This document shows positions 2,110 through 36,465 of a DNA stretch of 37,108 nucleotides, in pieces; the first letter of the stretch is position 1, and each line of letters starts with the position of its first letter. Source of the DNA: Pseudomonadota bacterium (GTDB lineage Bacteria; Myxococcota_A; Polyangia; Polyangiales; JAKSBK01); the NCBI GenBank assembly GCA_022361155.1, contig JAKSBK010000581.1:1-37108 (forward strand). Reading direction: 5' to 3'. The notes under the pieces were generated by a model. It was given only the letters and a program-made list of their open reading frames with translations. It searched no databases and had not been told where the DNA came from. The translations under genes were made by a program, and so were the position numbers.

Positions 2110-4491
2110 ATGGACCCCGCAGGCGGCGGCCGAGCCATGTCCCTCATCGTTCCGATAGCGGTTGCCTGGCTGCTGGCGTTGCTCCTTTCGGCTTGGAGCG
2201 TGGGCCACGACTTGCGGCTCGAGCTCGCTCTCGCGGCGCTCGCCTTGGCGTGCTGCGCTCTCCTTGCTGCGGGTGCCGGCGCGAGGCGCTGGGACCTGTG
2301 GGGTGGAGTGCTGTCGCTGGCGACGTTGCTGGCGGGGCTGAGCCTCGGCGATGCGCCACAACCTCGCGTCGCCTACCCGGAAGCCGGCCTGTATCGGCTG
2401 CGGCTCAGGGTGCAGCAGGTTCGCCATGGGCCGGGCAACGAGGCCAGCACGCGGGCAACGGTGCTCGAAGGAAGTCGGGTGGCAGACCACCGCCCGCTGT
2501 TGCCGGGCACGCGCTTGCTCATCGGGCCCCGTCCCCTGCTCGAGGGGAGCGAAGTTTGGCTCCTGGCCCATGTGCGGCCCCTCACGAGCTTCCGCAATGC
2601 GACGGCTCGCCGACAGCCGCGCTCGTCGCATCCTATTGACGGCCTTGCCTGGATACCTGAGGTGTCACCCGTGCGCAGTGTCGGTATTTCGACACCGAGC
2701 CTGCTGGTCAGGCTCAGGCAGCGCGTGAGAACACGGCTCACGAAAACGCTGCAGCCGCGAACGGCCGGCATCGCGCGCGCGCTCATCCTGGGCGATGGGC
2801 GTGCGGTGCAAACCGCCGACAGGCAGGCGGTGCGGCAGGCAGGCCTCTCGCACATCCTGGCTGTTTCAGGGCTGCACGTGGCGATCATGAGCGGCGTGCT
2901 CGTGACGCTGCTGCGCCTGTTGCTGCTGCGCTGCGGGTGGCTCGCGAGGCGCTTCGAGGCCCGGCGGCTGGCGTGCCTGCTGGGGGCTCCGCTCGCGCTC
3001 GGTGTGGCAGCATTCGCGGGTGGCGCCCCGAGTGCGTGGCGGGCCGCCATCACGGCTGCGCTTGGCTGGTTGTTGGTCGCCGCAGGCAGGAAGCCGGCAC
3101 CCGGGCCCTTGACCGCCGCTGCCGGACTCGCCTTCACCGTTGCTGCGCCCCAAGATGCAGCCCGGCCGGGGTTTCTCCTCTCCATCGTCGCAACCGCCGC
3201 GCTCGTGTCCGCGGCTCCCGCTCGTCGCGCCCGCTTCGCCGACCGCTTGCTGCAGGCTGCGGTCTTGAGCATCAGGGTGACGCTGGCCACTGCTCCCATT
3301 GTGTTGTGGTGCTTTGGCAGCTTGCCGCTGATAGGCGTCGTTGCCAACGTCGTTCTGGCTCCCGCCGCGGCCCATGTAGTGATCCCGCTTGCGGCGCTGC
3401 ACTCCGCTGTGGCCCTTGTGGCGCCCGGTGCAGCTGGGCCCACCGGCTGGCTCATGGAGCACACAAGCGGGGCCTTCATCGCTGCCTGCGGCTGGTTCGG
3501 TGAGGCGCCCGGGGTCGATGTGCCACCGCTCAGCCCGCTCCAGGGCACCGTGTTGGCCGTCGCAGCGCTGACCTTGCTGGCGTTGCGCAGCTGGCCCAAG
3601 CGCGTGTGGGCCGCGATCCTGGCCACGGTTGTCCTTTTCGCGTTCGAAGTGTGGCAGCACCATGTGGGACAGCCCCGGGACGTGTTGCGCGTCACCTTCG
3701 TGGATGTGGGTCAGGGGGATGCGGCACTCATAGATCTGCCGGACGGCCGGGCCATGCTGATCGACGCCGGAGGCAACCCAGGCGGCGGCCCCGATCCCGG
3801 GACCCGGGCGCTGCTACCGCTTCTGGGAGAACGACGCCGCTCCCGCATCGACGTGGTTGCCATAACCCACCCACACCCGGATCATTACGGAGGGCTTGCC
3901 TCGCTGGTCGATCGCATACCCATCGGTGAGCTGTGGGACACGGGGCAGGGCAGCGCCGAGCAGCCTGACGGGGAGGCCGACAAGCTGTTCGCTCGTGCGC
4001 GGGGGCGCGCAACCCGTGTCATCGGTCCAGGAGAGCTTTGCGATCGACCTCGGCAGGCGGGCGGCGCCCGCATCGAGGTGCTGTGGCCGTGTCCCGGCTA
4101 CGATCCAGGTCTCGATCTGAACGACAACTCGCTGGTGATTCGTATCGCCTTTGGCCGCCATCGCTTCTTGTTCACAGGCGACATCGAGCGCGAGGCCGAG
4201 AAGGCGCTCGTGCGGCAAGGGATCGATCTGCGGGCGGATGTGCTCAAGGTTCCGCACCACGGGTCTCGTACGTCCACCGATCCGACTTTTCTGGCGGCGG
4301 TGTCACCCAGGCTCGCCGTGCTGAGCACAGGGCGGGGCAATCGCTTCGGGCACCCGCACGCCGAGGTAGTACAGCGCCTCACGGCAGCAACGCGCAGACT
4401 CTTGCGCACCGACGAGGACGGTGGCGTGGTGGTCACCAGCGACGGCAACGAGCTCCGGGTTCGGACCTGGAGGGAGCAGATGGGTCCTTAG
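2110..4491 (+). CDS. comEC: ComEC/Rec2 DNA-uptake channel protein
   Basis: Inner-membrane channel that moves single-stranded DNA into the cell during natural transformation. The 793-residue protein has N-terminal membrane segments, an OB-like periplasmic segment (about 80-190), the Competence domain with the hallmark AVSGLHVAIMSG near residue 250 and many membrane helices up to about 515, then a metallo-beta-lactamase domain (VTFVDVGQGDAALID, THPHPDHYGGL near 585, FTGDIE, KVPHHGSRTS). Length and domain order match full-size ComEC. An in-frame ATG at 2137 (MSLIVPIAV) is an alternative start. The stop TAG is formed at the edge of the 161-bp repeat that begins at 4488. Confidence 0.94.
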   Translation: MDPAGGGRAMSLIVPIAVAWLLALLLSAWSVGHDLRLELALAALALACCALLAAGAGARRWDLWGGVLSLATLLAGLSLGDAPQPRVAYPEAGLYRLRLRVQQVRHGPGNEASTRATVLEGSRVADHRPLLPGTRLLIGPRPLLEGSEVWLLAHVRPLTSFRNATARRQPRSSHPIDGLAWIPEVSPVRSVGISTPSLLVRLRQRVRTRLTKTLQPRTAGIARALILGDGRAVQTADRQAVRQAGLSHILAVSGLHVAIMSGVLVTLLRLLLLRCGWLARRFEARRLACLLGAPLALGVAAFAGGAPSAWRAAITAALGWLLVAAGRKPAPGPLTAAAGLAFTVAAPQDAARPGFLLSIVATAALVSAAPARRARFADRLLQAAVLSIRVTLATAPIVLWCFGSLPLIGVVANVVLAPAAAHVVIPLAALHSAVALVAPGAAGPTGWLMEHTSGAFIAACGWFGEAPGVDVPPLSPLQGTVLAVAALTLLALRSWPKRVWAAILATVVLFAFEVWQHHVGQPRDVLRVTFVDVGQGDAALIDLPDGRAMLIDAGGNPGGGPDPGTRALLPLLGERRRSRIDVVAITHPHPDHYGGLASLVDRIPIGELWDTGQGSAEQPDGEADKLFARARGRATRVIGPGELCDRPRQAGGARIEVLWPCPGYDPGLDLNDNSLVIRIAFGRHRFLFTGDIEREAEKALVRQGIDLRADVLKVPHHGSRTSTDPTFLAAVSPRLAVLSTGRGNRFGHPHAEVVQRLTAATRRLLRTDEDGGVVVTSDGNELRVRTWREQMGP

Positions 4492-4648
4492 GGCCCGCGG
4501 AAGAATAATCCATCCATTTCGCCGGTTCTGACCACCGCTGGCTATGTTGCTCCTCCTCGAAGTATCCCCAATGCTCCTCGTCGTCGAGCCTCGCCAGCGG
4601 CGCCCAGTCCTCACCGAAACACCCGAGTCATTCTTCCGCGGGCCCTTA
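4488..4648. mobile_element. 161-bp MITE-like repeat, copy 1
   Basis: The element has inverted ends AGGGCCCGCGGAAGAAT (4490-4506) and its exact reverse complement (4630-4646), flanked by TTA on both sides. A second copy at 32538-32698 has the same length and differs at about 8 positions. No transposase is present, so it is non-autonomous. The minus strand contains the core motif PLAR-x-DDEE-x-W shared with other repeats in this window. The left TTA plus the first G of the element forms the comEC stop codon. Whether TTA is a target duplication or part of the element cannot be settled with two copies. Confidence 0.88.
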
Positions 4649-4722: not shown

Positions 4723-5988
4723 TTGAAGTTCGTTCACGCTGCCGACCTGCATCTGGACAGCCCAATGGTTGGGCTCAGGCGCTACGAAGGCGCGCCAGTC
4801 GAGGAGATCCGCGCCGCCACGAGGCGAGCGCTGGAGAATCTGGTTGAGCTCTGCATAGCGGAGCGGGCAGAGCTCTTGCTGCTGGCCGGTGATCTGTACG
4901 ATGGCGACTGGCGGGACTACTCGACAGGCCTCTTTTTCGCCGCGCAGATGTCGCGGCTGCGAGAAGCGAGCGTGCGGGTCGTGTGGATCCGCGGCAACCA
5001 CGACGCTGCCAGCCAGATTACCCGCCACCTGCGTCTGCCCGAGGGTATGCATGAGCTTTCACCGCTCGAGCCGGCAACCTGCACGCTCGAGGATCTGGGT
5101 GTCGCCGTGCACGGCCAGGGCTTCGCCAAGCGGGCGATCACCGCGGATCTTGCCGCGACCTATCCGGAGCCCATCCCGGGCCTGTTCAACATCGGCCTGT
5201 TGCATACGTGCCTTACCGGGCGGGTCGGCCACGATCCGTATGCGCCTTGCACCACGGAAGCCCTGGTCAACAGGGGCTACGCATACTGGGCCCTAGGACA
5301 CGTGCACCGGCGAGAGATCGTGTGCTCCGACCCCTGGATCGTGTTTCCGGGCAACCTGCAGGGCCGGCATGCGCGCGAGGTGGGCGACAAGGGCGCAACG
5401 CTGGTGACGGTCCAAGACGGCGCGGTGAGCCGGGTTGACCACGTAGCTCTGGACGTCGTGCGCTTCTGCCGCTCGGAGATCGACCTCAGCGACCTCGGCA
5501 GCCCCGACGACATGCTGGAGCACGCGCGCCGGCTCCTGGAGCGGGCCGCCGCAGCGGCCGAAGGGCGCACCCTTGCCGCGCGGATCGCGCTGGTGGGCAG
5601 CGGGGCACTTCAGCAGCGCCTGGAGGCCGATCCGGAACGATGGGAAAACGAGGTTCGCGTGCTCGCGACCGACCTCGGCGGCTACGGCGTGTGGCTCGAA
5701 CGCCTGGACTTCGTTCCCGGGCCTTTGGCCAGCGATCCCACGACCCAGGGTGCGGAGGTGCTTCAGCGCCTGCTCGGGTCGATGCATCGGCTCAGGCGAG
5801 AGCCTCGGGCGCTGGAGGCGCTGATGAGCGAGCTCGGCCCGCTACGCAGCAAGCTGCCACCCGAGGTGCGGGCGGCTCCCGAGGGCGAGGGCCTGCGCCT
5901 GGACAGCCCGTCCGCTCTTGGAGCCCTGCTGGACGACGCGGAGCGCTTGCTGCGCAGCAAATTGGTACCAGCGGACGAACGGTCGTGA
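4723..5988 (+). CDS. yhaO: YhaO-type metallophosphoesterase (Mre11/SbcD-like)
   Basis: A 421-residue DNA repair exonuclease subunit of the calcineurin-like phosphoesterase superfamily. Metal-binding motifs are in order: D8-x-H10 in HAADLHLDSP, GDLYD at 56-60, RGNHD at 90-94, and GHVHRR with its histidine pair near 192-195. The C-terminal part is helical, as in YhaO. Start is TTG at 4723 behind a strong GGAGGT site. The stop overlaps the GTG start of the next gene (GTGA), so the two are translationally coupled and probably form a Mre11-Rad50-like complex acting on DNA ends. The 74 bp before the gene, after the 161-bp repeat, hold no feature beyond the ribosome site. Confidence 0.9.
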   Translation: MKFVHAADLHLDSPMVGLRRYEGAPVEEIRAATRRALENLVELCIAERAELLLLAGDLYDGDWRDYSTGLFFAAQMSRLREASVRVVWIRGNHDAASQITRHLRLPEGMHELSPLEPATCTLEDLGVAVHGQGFAKRAITADLAATYPEPIPGLFNIGLLHTCLTGRVGHDPYAPCTTEALVNRGYAYWALGHVHRREIVCSDPWIVFPGNLQGRHAREVGDKGATLVTVQDGAVSRVDHVALDVVRFCRSEIDLSDLGSPDDMLEHARRLLERAAAAAEGRTLAARIALVGSGALQQRLEADPERWENEVRVLATDLGGYGVWLERLDFVPGPLASDPTTQGAEVLQRLLGSMHRLRREPRALEALMSELGPLRSKLPPEVRAAPEGEGLRLDSPSALGALLDDAERLLRSKLVPADERS

Positions 5989-9599: not shown

Positions 9600-9820
9600 G
9601 ACGTCGCCTGAGGGCCCGGGCCCGTGATCAGGAGCAGGGGCTGGGTCCGGTGCTGGGCCGGGATCGGGATCGGGATCCGACACGGGATCTGGCACGGATC
9701 GGGATCGCTGTCTTCAGCCTCGGCCCCTGTCTTCGGCCTCGGGTACCCGTGGACGGGTCGATGGAATTGTCCAATCGCGGGATATTCCGGATAAGCCGGA
9801 GTCTCATGCTACGATTGCTT
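9600..9820. other. Intergenic region upstream of the PDZ lipoprotein
   Basis: No gene is seen. GATCGG-rich direct repeats occur around 9660-9710. A weak sigma-70-like pair is TTGTCC (9767-9772) and GATAAG (9790-9795) with a 17-bp spacer, which could serve the downstream lipoprotein gene. Confidence in that promoter is low. Confidence 0.3.
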
Positions 9821-9886
9821 CGAGTCATCCCGCCTCGAGTCATCCCGCCTCGAGTCATCCCGCCTCGAGTCATCCCGCTTCGAGTC
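9821..9886. repeat. 15-bp tandem repeat array
   Basis: Four copies of CGAGTCATCCCGCCT (the last ends in TT) at 9821-9880, then a partial unit to 9886. The array ends 19 bp before the ATG at 9906, so it lies in the leader of the lipoprotein gene. Copy-number change here would alter promoter or leader spacing but not the coding frame. Confidence 0.92.
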
Positions 9887-9905
9887 GTTCTGGTTGGATC
9901 CACTC

Positions 9906-11385: not shown

Positions 11386-12911
11386 GGTGCCGAGGTGTCG
11401 GCTGTCAGCTCGGCGGGAAGGTCGGCACCAGTGAGTGTCTCCAGGAACGCCTTCAAGTCGGCCTTTTCGCCTGATTCGAGATTCAGCGGCACGATCACCG
11501 CATCTTTGACGCCCGCGAAGCCGGTGTCGTCGCCCCCGCGGTCGTAGAAATCAATGACGTCCTCGAGCGTGGCGAGCTGGCCCGCGTGCATGTATGGGGC
11601 GGTCAGTGCGATCTGGCGAAGGCCCTTGGTGCGGAATCTGCCCCGCTCCACCGCGAGCGGATCGGCGGCTAGACCGGCCAACTTCGTGTCCCCAAAGGTA
11701 GCGTCATCACTGAAGTCGCCCCTCGTGTTGAAGATATCACCCAGCAGGCCCTTCAGGTCTCCGAATCTTCCGAGGTCTTCCGCGGGCACGTTCATGCCAC
11801 TTTGGGCGATCCCCAGGTTGTGGAACGTGTCGTCCGAGAAGTGCGCGTTGTCGTGGCATCGATTGCAGTTGGCTTTGCCGACGAAGAGCTTGAGTCCGCG
11901 CTTGGCTGCCGAGCTGATAGCCGCGTCGTTGCCGGCAACAAACCTGTCAAAGGGAGCATCCCGCGCCACGAGCAAACGCATGTATGCGGACAGAGCCTTG
12001 CCCACATTGGCAACGACCCGGTTGACGTGGGCCTGATCCGCGGCGCTCATCCTCTCCCATGGGCCGTCGGGATCGGTGGCGACCTTCTTGGGTTTGCCCA
12101 TCGCTGGAAAACGCGTGGAGCCGGAGCCAAGCGCGGGGTCCAGAGGGGTGCCGGTAAAGACACTGTTGTAGTCGTCCCTGTACTTATCAAACACCACGTG
12201 GGCTACGCGCAGGCGCGTAGAATTGAAGATCACACCCGCTTCGAATACTGCGCGGGGCAACGACCATTGCGCATCGAATCGCCCAGCCCAGTTGGTCCAT
12301 TTGTAGAACGCGGAGTTGACCACCGGCGGAGAGTTGCGCCGGTGGTAGCCCGTGCCCAAGGAGACATTGTTGGGAAGGCTACGCTGGTCGTCGAATGCCG
12401 GTCCATCGTGGCAACTTCGGCATGCGATCTTGCCTTCTTCGCCTTCCGCTCCAAGACTGCTGGCGACCTTGATGGGACCGGCCCAGGACTTCTCGAAGAA
12501 GAAGCGTTGCCCCAACCTTGCCGCCGCTGCAGCGTCTGCGTGCTTGTTGCTCGGGTCTACCGGCACGGCGGGCAGCGGCGAGAGCCTCGAGTACGCTGTT
12601 ATCTCCTCCGGAGTGAATACGGGGTCCCCGCACACGGCGTCGCCGGCTTCAGAGCCCCCGCAACCCGCAAAGCTGAGCGCTGCCGGCAACAGGACTAGTA
12701 CCGCTTGCCAGGGATTATGCTGGATTCCCGCCGGCTCTGACGGCCGCCGGCGGTGTTGCACCTCCTCGAATATGCGCTGCACCGCATCGAAATCAACCGC
12801 AGTCTTCGTCGGTGCGCCTTGCCAGCGACCGACAGCCCTCGACGCCAATCGATCACAACCCCTGGCAAGCGGTACTAGTAGCAATTCCTTTGGTAATTCC
12901 TTGTCGAGCAT
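11382..12911 (-). CDS. Di-haem cytochrome c peroxidase/MauG-like lipoprotein
   Basis: Periplasmic di-haem protein of the CcpA/MauG superfamily. Two haem c sites are visible, CRSCH (near 220) and CNRCH (near 370), with conserved LGQRFFFEKSW, SPPVVNSAFY, the MSAADQAHVNRVV region and APYMHAGQLATLEDVIDFYD. Expected role is peroxide reduction or another two-electron oxidation. The lipobox LSFAGC directly follows a segment whose coding DNA is the end of the 186-bp repeat (12694-12879), so the original start has been replaced. The open frame passes right through the repeat. ATG at 12911 is taken as the nearest upstream start; ATG at 13079 is also possible. The stop overlaps the start of the RCC1-like gene. 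Confidence 0.82.
   Translation of the reverse strand: MLDKELPKELLLVPLARGCDRLASRAVGRWQGAPTKTAVDFDAVQRIFEEVQHRRRPSEPAGIQHNPWQAVLVLLPAALSFAGCGGSEAGDAVCGDPVFTPEEITAYSRLSPLPAVPVDPSNKHADAAAAARLGQRFFFEKSWAGPIKVASSLGAEGEEGKIACRSCHDGPAFDDQRSLPNNVSLGTGYHRRNSPPVVNSAFYKWTNWAGRFDAQWSLPRAVFEAGVIFNSTRLRVAHVVFDKYRDDYNSVFTGTPLDPALGSGSTRFPAMGKPKKVATDPDGPWERMSAADQAHVNRVVANVGKALSAYMRLLVARDAPFDRFVAGNDAAISSAAKRGLKLFVGKANCNRCHDNAHFSDDTFHNLGIAQSGMNVPAEDLGRFGDLKGLLGDIFNTRGDFSDDATFGDTKLAGLAADPLAVERGRFRTKGLRQIALTAPYMHAGQLATLEDVIDFYDRGGDDTGFAGVKDAVIVPLNLESGEKADLKAFLETLTGADLPAELTADTSAP
12694..12879. mobile_element. 186-bp MITE-like repeat, copy 1
   Basis: Perfect 20-bp inverted ends: ACTAGTACCGCTTGCCAGGG (12694-12713) and its reverse complement (12860-12879). 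A copy in the opposite orientation at 32711-32896 has the same length and differs at 7 positions. It has no transposase. The minus-strand frame that enters the peroxidase is open through the whole element (motifs GRWQGAPT, RIFEEVQH, PSEPAG, NPWQAV). A second frame shows SLARRTDE, the core also found in the 161-bp repeat. No clear flanking duplication is visible. Confidence 0.9.
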
Positions 12912-16803: not shown

Positions 16804-16887
16804 GTCAACACAGCGGCTCGAGTCAACACAGCGGCTCGAGTCAACACAGCGGTTTGGGTCAACACAGCGGTTTGGGTCAACACAGCC
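16804..16887. repeat. 18-bp tandem repeat array
   Basis: Two copies of GTCAACACAGCGGCTCGA (16804-16839), two of GTCAACACAGCGGTTTGG (16840-16875) and a partial unit to 16887. It starts 20 bp before the GTG of the E1 gene, between two divergent genes. The core TCAACACAGCGGC matches the core of the array at 1-102. Confidence 0.92.
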
Positions 16888-17190
16888 TCCGGCCACTCAG
16901 GCCACGATCCCCAACCAAAGGGCCCTAACCATTGTACCACTTGCGGCGAGCGGGTGGTCCGTGCCAATCCAGCATGCGGCTGGCGCGGGCTCGGTCGGCC
17001 CCGGTCGCGGTAGCTCGGGCGCGCGGCGCAGTCGTGGCATGCCGTTTGGCCCGCGCTGCGTGTGCCAGCCCGGTGTGTGATCCTGTGTGCGTGATCCGGC
17101 GTGCGTGACCCGAGCTGCGCGAGGCGGCGCTCAGGAGCCCCCGCGCTCGACCGCGTTCGGGCGCCCCGACAATCTGCTAGCATATTGCAC
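16888..17190. other. Intergenic region between E1 and paaA
   Basis: Divergent intergenic space that should hold the paaA promoter. Three imperfect direct repeats of about 14 bp (GTGTGTGATCCT, GTGTGCGTGATCCG, GCGTGCGTGACCCG) lie at about 17072-17112. I see no gene and no convincing sigma-70 pair. Confidence 0.35.
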
Positions 17191-31543: not shown

Positions 31544-31752
31544 TGACTATCCTCCCGTTGGCCTCTCGTGCCGAGTAAGCAAGAAAGCAAGAGAAGACCC
31601 AGGGGCCAACTGTCCTGATGCACGATGATATACGAGGGGGCACCTCGGAGGCAAGGTGGGTCATCCACCACCCTGTTCCCGCAGGTGCGAGTTCTGCGTT
31701 GACTGAATACGGTGCCGGCGATACCTGTCAGACACGTGGAGGCTCGCGATCG

Positions 31753-32541
31753 ATGACCAGTACCACGAATCACAGACTTGGTTCGGGTTCCGGAACCGGG
31801 AAACACCACCAGTATGGCTCGTCGACGCGCCTTGCCAGCGGCGCCCGGCCCTCGTCGATCCGATCGATCCTTGGCATCGCCCTCGGGTGCGCCCTGTGTT
31901 TCAGCGTGACCACTTTCGGCCAAACCAGCGTGCCTGCCGATCCCGCGGTGGTCGCAGGCGTGGTTCAGGCGTTCTACGATCAGACGCAGACCTTGCAGGC
32001 CCATTTTCATCAGACCTACGTGCACCGCTTGTACAAGCGCGCCGAGCGCTCCAAGGGTCGAGTCGCATTCAAGAAGCCGGGCAAGATGCGCTGGGACTAT
32101 GCGCAGCCCAACGGCAAGATCGTTGTCAGCGACGGCAGCAAACTGCTCGTGTACGAGCCGGGAGACCAGGGGGAGCGTGGTCAGGTCTACGAACAGTCCT
32201 TGGGGGAAGCTCAGCTACCGCAGGCACTGTCGTTTCTGCTCGGCCAGGGTCTCCTGACTCAGGATTTTCATCTGCGATCGCTCGACTCCCGGCGTCAAGG
32301 CTATCCAAGCGGCCACGTTCTGGAATTGCGCGCAAAGCAACCAAGCCCGCACTACGAGCGCATCCTGTTCTATGTCGAGCAAGATGCACGCTTGAGGGGA
32401 CTGGTGCGCCGGGTGCTCATCGTGGACCACGACGGTAATCGCAACCGCCTCGACTTCAGCAAGATGAGCTTCAATCGAAGAGTGCCCGATGCGCGCTTCG
32501 CGTGGACACCTCCCAAGGGCACGCGCAAGATCACGCCTTAG
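31753..32541 (+). CDS. lolA: Outer-membrane lipoprotein carrier LolA
   Basis: Periplasmic chaperone that carries lipoproteins from the LolCDE complex to the outer membrane. The mature part shows the LolA pattern: VVQAFYDQTQTLQAHFHQTY, GRVAFKKPGKMRWDYAQPNGK, VSDGSKLLVYEPGDQ, and the late VDHDGNRNRLDFSKM. The start at 31753 has a GGAGG site ten bases upstream; the open frame continues to 31618 without support. The N-terminus before the hydrophobic signal core is unusually long (about 38 residues) and contains a fragment of the repeat family at 31806-31856. The TAG stop lies at the edge of the 161-bp repeat, as in comEC. Confidence 0.88.
   Translation: MTSTTNHRLGSGSGTGKHHQYGSSTRLASGARPSSIRSILGIALGCALCFSVTTFGQTSVPADPAVVAGVVQAFYDQTQTLQAHFHQTYVHRLYKRAERSKGRVAFKKPGKMRWDYAQPNGKIVVSDGSKLLVYEPGDQGERGQVYEQSLGEAQLPQALSFLLGQGLLTQDFHLRSLDSRRQGYPSGHVLELRAKQPSPHYERILFYVEQDARLRGLVRRVLIVDHDGNRNRLDFSKMSFNRRVPDARFAWTPPKGTRKITP
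31806..31856. repeat. Core fragment of the 161-bp repeat family
   Basis: On the minus strand, GGCGCCGCTGGCAAGGCGCG and its flanks match the core of the 161-bp repeats and the fragment at 33686. In the matching frame it reads PLARRVDEPYWW. No inverted ends remain. It lies inside lolA between the start codon and the signal-peptide core, so it has been absorbed into the coding sequence. Confidence 0.65.
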
Positions 32542-32698
32542 GGCCCGCGGAAGAATAACTCATCCATTTCGCCGGTTCTGACCACCGCTGGCTACGTTGC
32601 TCCTCCTCGAAGTATCCCCAATACTCCTCGTCGTCGCGCCTCGCCCGCGGCGCCCAGTCCTCACCGAAACACCCGAGTTGTTCTTCCGCGGGCCCTTA
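32538..32698. mobile_element. 161-bp MITE-like repeat, copy 2
   Basis: Same length as copy 1 and about 95% identical (8 differences seen by eye). Inverted ends GGGCCCGCGGAAGAA and reverse complement are flanked by TTA on both sides. The minus strand has an open frame across the whole element (PRARRDDEEYWGYFEEEQ, then SEPAKWM). The left junction CCTTAG ends lolA with Pro-stop, exactly as in comEC. It is only 12 bp from the 186-bp repeat that follows. Confidence 0.9.
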
Positions 32699-32710
32699 GG
32701 ACATCACAGG

Positions 32711-32896
32711 ACTAGTACCGCTTGCCAGGGGTTGTGATCGATTGGCGTCGAGGGCTGTCGGTCGCTGGCAAGGCGCACCGACGATGACGGCGGTTGATTT
32801 CGATGCTCTGCAGCGCATATTCGAGGAGGTGCAACACCGCCAGCGGCCCTCAGAGCCGGCGGGAATCCATCATAATCCCTGGCAAGCGGTACTAGT
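32711..32896. mobile_element. 186-bp MITE-like repeat, copy 2
   Basis: Perfect 20-bp inverted ends (32711-32730 and 32877-32896) as in the copy at 12694, in opposite orientation, with seven internal differences. The frame with GRWQGAPT and RIFEEVQH is intact here too, although no host gene uses it. It lies just after the 3' end of the Crp/Fnr gene (stop at 32917), so it fills the space between two convergent genes together with the 161-bp copy. Confidence 0.9.
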
Positions 32897-33621: not shown

Positions 33622-33925
33622 TGCCGGCTCCTAGTGTCCTGGAACGGTGGTTAGAAGCTGCCGCACCATAACCTGTGCAGAGCGCAGAGGACCGGGTGCC
33701 GTTGGCAAGGCGCGACGACGAGGAATACTGCGGGTCTCACTCCGGCACATCTGGTCTCAGAAAAAAGAAAGACTGCGTCCACGGCCAGGGCCCAGGATGT
33801 GTATCACAAACCCGACGCCAGCTCGCCCAGCCCACAATACACTCTCACCACATTTTTCTCAGGAGATCCAGGCGATCATGGCGGGATCAAGCGAAGGATC
33901 TCTGTTCCAGGGCACCTGAGCTCGG
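33622..33925. other. Intergenic region upstream of the Crp/Fnr gene
   Basis: No gene is supported. It should hold the regulator promoter. It includes the repeat fragment at 33686-33735 and a moderately AT-rich stretch (33750-33870, with an A-run near 33760). No clear Crp/Fnr half-sites are seen. Confidence 0.35.
33686..33735. repeat. Core fragment of the 161-bp repeat family
   Basis: Plus-strand GTTGGCAAGGCGCGACGACG with flanks matches the 161-bp core and the fragment in lolA. In the matching frame it reads PLARRDDEEYCG. The ends of the element are missing. Confidence 0.65.
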
Positions 33926-35542: not shown

Positions 35543-36465
35543 CACGAGCTCGAGCGCCTATAGGCAGCGGTAGGCAGGCTGACCTCGTCATCTCGCCGAA
35601 TTGCCAGGCAGGCTTGGGCACGTTCCACAGGGCGGTTCGCATGGGCAGGGCGGTTCGCATGGGCAGGGCGGTTCGCGTCGGCAGGGCGGTTCGCATGGGC
35701 AGGGCGGTTCGCGTCGGCAGGGCGGTTCGCGTCGGCAGGGCGGCGGGCTCGAGCTCGCCGCCAGGTTGAGCGCAGGGCACCTGTTGCCACGACGTAAGGG
35801 ATGACGAACAGCGCGTGGCGTAGCCCCACACCGCTGCGTTCCATTCCATAGATGGGTTTCACGGTCACTTGCGCCAGCCGCAACCGGTGTTGGGCAACGC
35901 GAGCGAGCAGATCGTTGGGGTAGCCGTATCGAGGCCAAAGTGTATCGAGCCCAAGGCGCCGAGCGGCGCGGCGCTTGATCGCGCTGTAGCCGCACTGCGA
36001 GTCTCGCACGGGCAGTCCTGTACCGAGGCGCGTGAGCGCGGACAGCGCGTGGTTTCCAAACCAACGCAGCCGTGGCATTTCGCTGCGTGCGAGCGGGTGG
36101 GACAAACGGTCGCCTGTCACGTAGTCGGCATCCCCGGAGGCGATCGGCACCAGCACGGAACGAAGGTCCTCCGGATCCATCTGCCCATCTCCGGCCATCA
36201 CGGCCACTGCATCGGCCCCGAGCTAGAAGGCCCGAGCATATCCCGTGACGACGGCTGCCCCGACTCCGCGGTTGCAGTCGTGCTTGAGCAAGTGTAGGCG
36301 TGGCTCCCAAGCCAGCTGGACCCGCTCCGCGGTCGAGTCTGAGCTCGCGTCGTCGACGACCACGATGTCGTCGACGAAGCTCGGGATCCCTCGCACAGCC
36401 CCGACGATCAGCGTTTCCTCGTTGAAGGCCGGGATCACCACCGCCACGCGTAAGCCCTGAAACAT
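35542..36465 (-). pseudogene. GT2 (DPM1-like) glycosyltransferase with in-frame TAG
   Basis: Family 2 GT-A glycosyltransferase that would use a polyprenyl-phosphate or sugar acceptor. From ATG 36465 it reads MFQGLRVAVVIPAFNEE, VDDIVVVDDASSDSTAE, HDCNRGVGAAVVTGYARAF, then TAG at 36223-36225. The same frame continues with LGADAVAVMAGDGQMDPEDL (the catalytic region), TGDRLSHPLARSEMP, GYSAIKRRAARRLG and a hydrophobic segment. Family members usually have E, K or Q at this position, so one base change (GAG or CAG to TAG) explains it. The C-terminus carries six 6-residue repeats RPA[DH]AN from an 18-bp array. It may be a pseudogene, a suppressed stop or a read error. ATG 36207 could restart the second part but would omit the nucleotide-binding half. 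Confidence 0.82.
35631..35743. repeat. 18-bp tandem repeat array inside the GT2 gene
   Basis: Six copies of an 18-bp unit, GGCGGTTCGCATGGGCAG or GGCGGTTCGCGTCGGCAG, at 35631-35738, plus a partial unit. The two unit types encode H or D in the repeat RPA[HD]AN. The length is a multiple of three, so copy-number change would keep the frame and vary only the tail of the glycosyltransferase. Confidence 0.93.

Follow-up and report, generated by a model that had tools for sequence, protein, structure and literature searches.

Stop-like landing sites of a probable IS5-type MITE and a hairpin core shared by families with different ends

Two genes in the 37,108-nucleotide stretch of DNA analysed here (the window), comEC and lolA, close on the same Pro-stop at the exact point where a short repeat begins, which raises the question of whether the repeat supplies their stop codons or had landed on stops already present. 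As an earlier note on this DNA had described, both frames end CCT-TAG at the first base of the repeat (stops at 4489-4491 and 32539-32541). The last codons are GGT CCT TAG in comEC and ACG CCT TAG in lolA, and in both genes the TAG consists of the TA of a TTA duplication followed by base 1, a G, of the element. Both copies of what that note called a 161-bp repeat are real and are 95% identical to each other, but the element itself is 155 bp long, the rest being a TTA target-site duplication on each side. The element starts with GGGCCCGCGGAAGAAT, and its other end is the reverse complement. Both comEC and lolA are genuine genes, as judged from their domain content, and a simple gene finder called each with exactly the end at the element junction. 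The features of the two sites are listed here.

2110..4491, plus strand: comEC, with a Competence (PF03772) and a metallo-beta-lactamase domain
4488..4490, no strand: target-site duplication TTA, left of copy 1; the same TTA flanks both sides, an arrangement that recurs in many copies
4489..4491, plus strand: comEC stop TAG, from the duplication's TA and the element's first G
4491..4645, minus strand: MITE copy 1, 155 bp, ends GGGCCCGCGGAAGAAT / ATTCTTCCGCGGGCCC; the core (G·A) strand is on minus
4530..4605, minus strand: conserved core hairpin region, R1-type, of copy 1, placed by hand from the element sequence
4646..4648, no strand: target-site duplication TTA, right of copy 1; the next base is C, not G
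4723..5988, plus strand: sbcD-like metallophosphoesterase gene, downstream of copy 1
31618..32541, plus strand: lolA ORF, with a LolA domain (PF03548) from residue 122
32538..32540, no strand: target-site duplication TTA, left of copy 2
32539..32541, plus strand: lolA stop TAG, also present in the reconstructed empty site
32541..32695, minus strand: MITE copy 2, 155 bp
32696..32698, no strand: target-site duplication TTA, right of copy 2, followed by G (ancestral TAG)

Diverged remnants resembling the core hairpin lie at 31805-31860 and 33680-33735. Because the first of these falls within the lolA ORF, 5′ of the LolA domain, the true start of lolA is probably downstream of 31618.

The window is contig C581 of a metagenome-like draft genome of 5.41 Mb in 608 contigs, with 65% G+C, in which the terminal 16-mer of the element has 208 matches with up to two mismatches, against 4 for a reversed control. 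About 100 or more copies are present in this genome, some broken by contig ends, and at least 40 are well scored. Terminal inverted repeats, scored as 12 or more complementary bases among the 16 at the ends, are found in 87 copies. Perfect 3-bp duplications (n = 43) are mainly TTA (23) and TAA (14), with C before the duplication and G after it in most copies whose flanks were fetched. One-ended copies are also numerous (e.g., L092, L114, L115 and L145); they keep one terminus, and their interior breakpoints vary.

Duplication of TNA or TA within CTNAG or CTAG is a trait of the IS5 family (IS427/IS1031-like elements), and the duplication and target of the element are taken here to be those of IS5-type elements. 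Like IS5-family MITEs, the element is short and non-coding, with terminal inverted repeats and a duplication of this kind, and near-identical ends occur on a partner IS in a relative with a single-contig assembly of 11.3 Mb (G178). This relative holds an IS of about 890 bp in six copies, with matches to DUF4096 and DDE_Tnp_4, ends GAGCGCCTAACAAAACC and TTA on both sides, and the core-bearing MITEs of the same genome have GAGCGCCGAACAAAACC ends between TTA flanks. Because its ends are near-identical to those of these MITEs and it makes the same TTA duplication, the IS is their likely mover, and for this relative the evidence of a partner is direct. By analogy, the same kind of transposase would have moved the family in the window's genome. 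One difference from IS5-family MITEs is that no IS5-type transposase with these ends, and no match to DUF4096 or DDE_Tnp_4, was found in the 608-contig draft of the window's genome; four DDE_Tnp_1 loci in it were considered and set aside for want of matching ends. The element also differs from such MITEs in that it does not look like an internal-deletion derivative, since coding sequence takes up most of the IS of the relative, in which no copy of the core was seen. A decayed transposase C-terminus was likewise rejected, because the segment is absent from that IS, whose orfB reads to the IS end.

The repeat is thus very probably a non-autonomous IS5-type MITE whose landing site resembles a stop codon and whose insertion the stop survives. 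In this model, a DDE transposase would recognise the terminal GGGCCCGCGGAAGAAT repeats and insert the element into C-TNA-G, mostly CTTAG or CTAAG, with duplication of the three middle bases. CTTAG and CTAAG are scarce inside the genes of this 65% G+C genome, yet overlap TAG and TAA stops. An insertion at a stop would leave the protein unchanged and persist, because TAA lies within the duplication or because the G of the element rebuilds xT TAG. Insertions inside genes would be lost, and those in comEC and lolA would be two that preserved the stop.

The distribution of copies bears on this directly. Among 57 copies with usable flanks, 18 lie exactly on a called gene stop, 36 are intergenic, three are read-in and none is inside a gene; about a third of the copies are thus at a stop codon. 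At perfect CTWAG targets, 11 of 18 occupied sites are at a stop compared with 6 of 71 unoccupied sites (Fisher p = 6e-6), where genes were called by a simple home-made finder trained on the fetched sequence and the unoccupied sites came from 0.5 Mb of it. An independent gene-calling method based on frame scores gave 13 of 22 against 6 of 72 (p = 2e-6). The reconstructed targets at stops are mainly CTAAG, in nine cases, and CTTAG, in two. These results agree with the suggestions that the coincidence at gene ends exceeds chance and that the element targets a stop-like TTA/CTTAG site. At least one copy (C95:13108) occupies a site common to two convergent genes, which is TAA in one direction and TAG in the other.

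The excess at stops remains when sites inside genes are left out (p = 5e-4), which argues that target availability alone is not the whole explanation, although the intergenic null is inflated because the gene finder misses some genes. Much of the excess probably comes from selection against gene disruption, through loss of disruptive insertions, to which a true insertion preference for stops may perhaps be added. Alternatively, copies at stops may be retained because a 3′ hairpin is of benefit in protecting the mRNA end or in ending or processing the transcript. Both strands do fold far better than shuffled sequences (−71.4, z = −7.0; −90.7, z = −8.5), the core is deeply conserved, and the intergenic copies, too, tend to lie just downstream of stops, being nearer an upstream stop than free CTWAG sites are (p = 0.019). 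A 3′ hairpin, as envisaged in the earlier note, is therefore structurally plausible, but the element is not a standard intrinsic terminator, since the stem is followed by no U-tract at either window copy (GGGCCCUUACC / GGGCCCUUAGG; UUACC / UUAGG next). Survival of non-disruptive insertions by itself also predicts the excess, and retention for such a benefit is considered unlikely. At stop sites the core strand is antisense to the gene in 13 copies and in the same sense in 4 (p = 0.049), which is a hint only.

Whether the element makes stops, as opposed to landing on them, can be judged from empty sites, which were reconstructed by removing the element and one TTA; relatives within the same order were compared, and because these include no genus- or family-mate, no empty site was seen directly. 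For 17 of the 18 copies at stops, the reconstructed target already contains the stop, either as TAA in the duplication or as a TAG that the G of the element restores. The empty lolA site reads ACG CCT TAG GAC, with the stop intact, and each of the 11 lolA orthologues from other genomes stops at that residue or no more than two away, several of them with Pro-stop. The remaining case is comEC, where the right flank is TTAC, so that TAG needs the G of the element and the joined frame would otherwise run 66 codons further. Of seven comEC orthologues, five stop no more than 8 residues from the same alignment point and two extend 20 and 24 residues beyond it, none of them 66. Because the orthologue ends are this near, a new stop and a G-to-C change that arose later in the comEC flank are equally likely, and comEC is the sole candidate, from its flanking sequence, for a stop made by the element. 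The proposal that genes are cut short by the element, which would give them a standard Pro-stop terminus, draws on this one flank; the stops that predate insertion, the untrimmed lolA orthologues and the short comEC differences make it very improbable, and the Pro common to both C-termini is explained by the CC that precedes the TTA target.

The interior of the element contains a conserved core hairpin, which was found in 49 of 184 genomes of the order, the window's genome included (E <= 1e-4; at most 26 scored copies per genome), and also, in other phyla, in four loci of metagenome assemblies labelled Burkholderiales/Bordetella and Thermoanaerobaculia. In an alignment of 51 core sequences (A4) fitted to a model, both partners have changed in 19 of 20 pairs (200 cells), and the covariation score is 0.61, compared with 0.17 for shuffled and at most 0.11 for slid alignments. 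The covariation of the six innermost pairs was not built in, because those pairs lie outside the model that made the alignment. Between the stems, 5′-C GA C GA C GA G-3′ opposes 5′-C GA G GA G GA G-3′ to give three tandem G·A steps; their letters are retained, according to the pair considered, by 29-40 of 42 foreign copies. Because T·C mismatches would arise on the other strand, the conserved fold is a property of one strand. A small conserved peptide in the minus-strand frame (GEDWAPLARRDDEEYWGYFEEEQHSQRW...), as in protein-extending palindromic elements, is scarcely credible: most of 150 copies keep the frame open and crude omega is 0.42 among 38 copies, but base pairing accounts for the conserved letters, given the compensatory double changes and the ladder of G·A pairs that foreign copies keep, no Pfam protein family matches the internal frame, and the copies lie between genes, not within them.

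The termini around the core vary between genomes, and most of the resolved ends begin with G beside TA or TNA. The same situation is found within the window, where a second MITE family has the core in common with the 155-bp family and has different termini.

32715..32892, plus strand: copy of the second MITE family, 178 bp, ends GTACCGCTTGCCAGGG, TA duplication in CTAG; core strand plus; about 16 bp downstream of copy 2
12698..12875, minus strand: copy of the second MITE family with the same core, inverted relative to 32715-32892

Four of nine scorable copies of this second family are on stops, and its excess at stops, with sites inside genes left out, is not significant (p = 0.22). A further family of about 178 bp (L146, L152, L076 and L067) has similar GGGCCCGCGGAAGAATAACTCG ends and a different interior.

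The core may be, on a reading offered tentatively, an undescribed strand-specific module, with three tandem sheared-type G·A steps between covarying stems, that keeps its fold, swaps its ends and rides different IS5-type transposases; since its fold depends on G·A pairs in one strand, it would act as single-stranded DNA or as RNA. Rfam 15 gave no gathering-level match over the window and, at E <= 1, none of relevance in nine loci. No copy of the core was found in viral contigs by exact pattern search or in plasmids with the L263 copy as query, and the core sequences tried had no exact match in the open-access literature, an earlier description elsewhere being possible. If this reading is correct, the core would be a hairpin parasite of many MITE families in several phyla that changes its ends. 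A passive deletion derivative would hardly be expected to have a covarying core with changing ends, and the question arises of whether the reader of the hairpin is the transposase, host repair or RNA processing.

In IS870-type elements, the stop of the element's own ORF is made by the CTAG target; insertion at CTAG makes TAG at the junction there as here, but in the present case host genes keep their own stops. REPIN/REP sequences of RAYT (Y1) transposases were rejected as relatives because no target-site duplication is expected of them and the element has clear TWA duplications, and so were Rickettsia-type palindromic elements, which lie in frame inside protein genes, where none of the 57 copies was found. 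The element resembles Correia, RUP, ERIC and YPAL, the small palindromic mobile repeats of bacteria (PMC2229807), in being 100-200 bp long, with a long stem-loop, and in having many, mainly intergenic, copies. Unlike them, the main family duplicates TWA instead of TA, is G+C-rich and concentrated on stops, and has a structured core common to families with different ends. QMITE2 of Coxiella lies next to a stop, at a gene's 3′ end, where its in-frame insertion adds 33 residues to one protein (PMC5896051); the location is similar, but there the protein is lengthened, whereas the present element has the stop itself as its target and leaves the protein as it was. A transposon whose target overlaps the stop, and whose first base restores it, can spread through a compact G+C-rich genome and do little harm. 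The stop-preserving MITE is a variant on known IS5-type MITEs, and the structured core with exchangeable ends is most worth following.

Other repeats were observed in addition. On contig C173 (L096:170-250), a 30-bp unit, GGGCCCGCGGTCGATGGACCCGGCGCCTTA, occurs in tandem beside an element end, which suggests slippage or repeated insertion at one site. Within the window, short tandem repeats of 15-19 bp, such as GATTCAACACGGCGRCCAT and GTCAACACAGCGGCTCGA, are found at 1-102, 9817-9891, 16804-16893 and 35628-35771.
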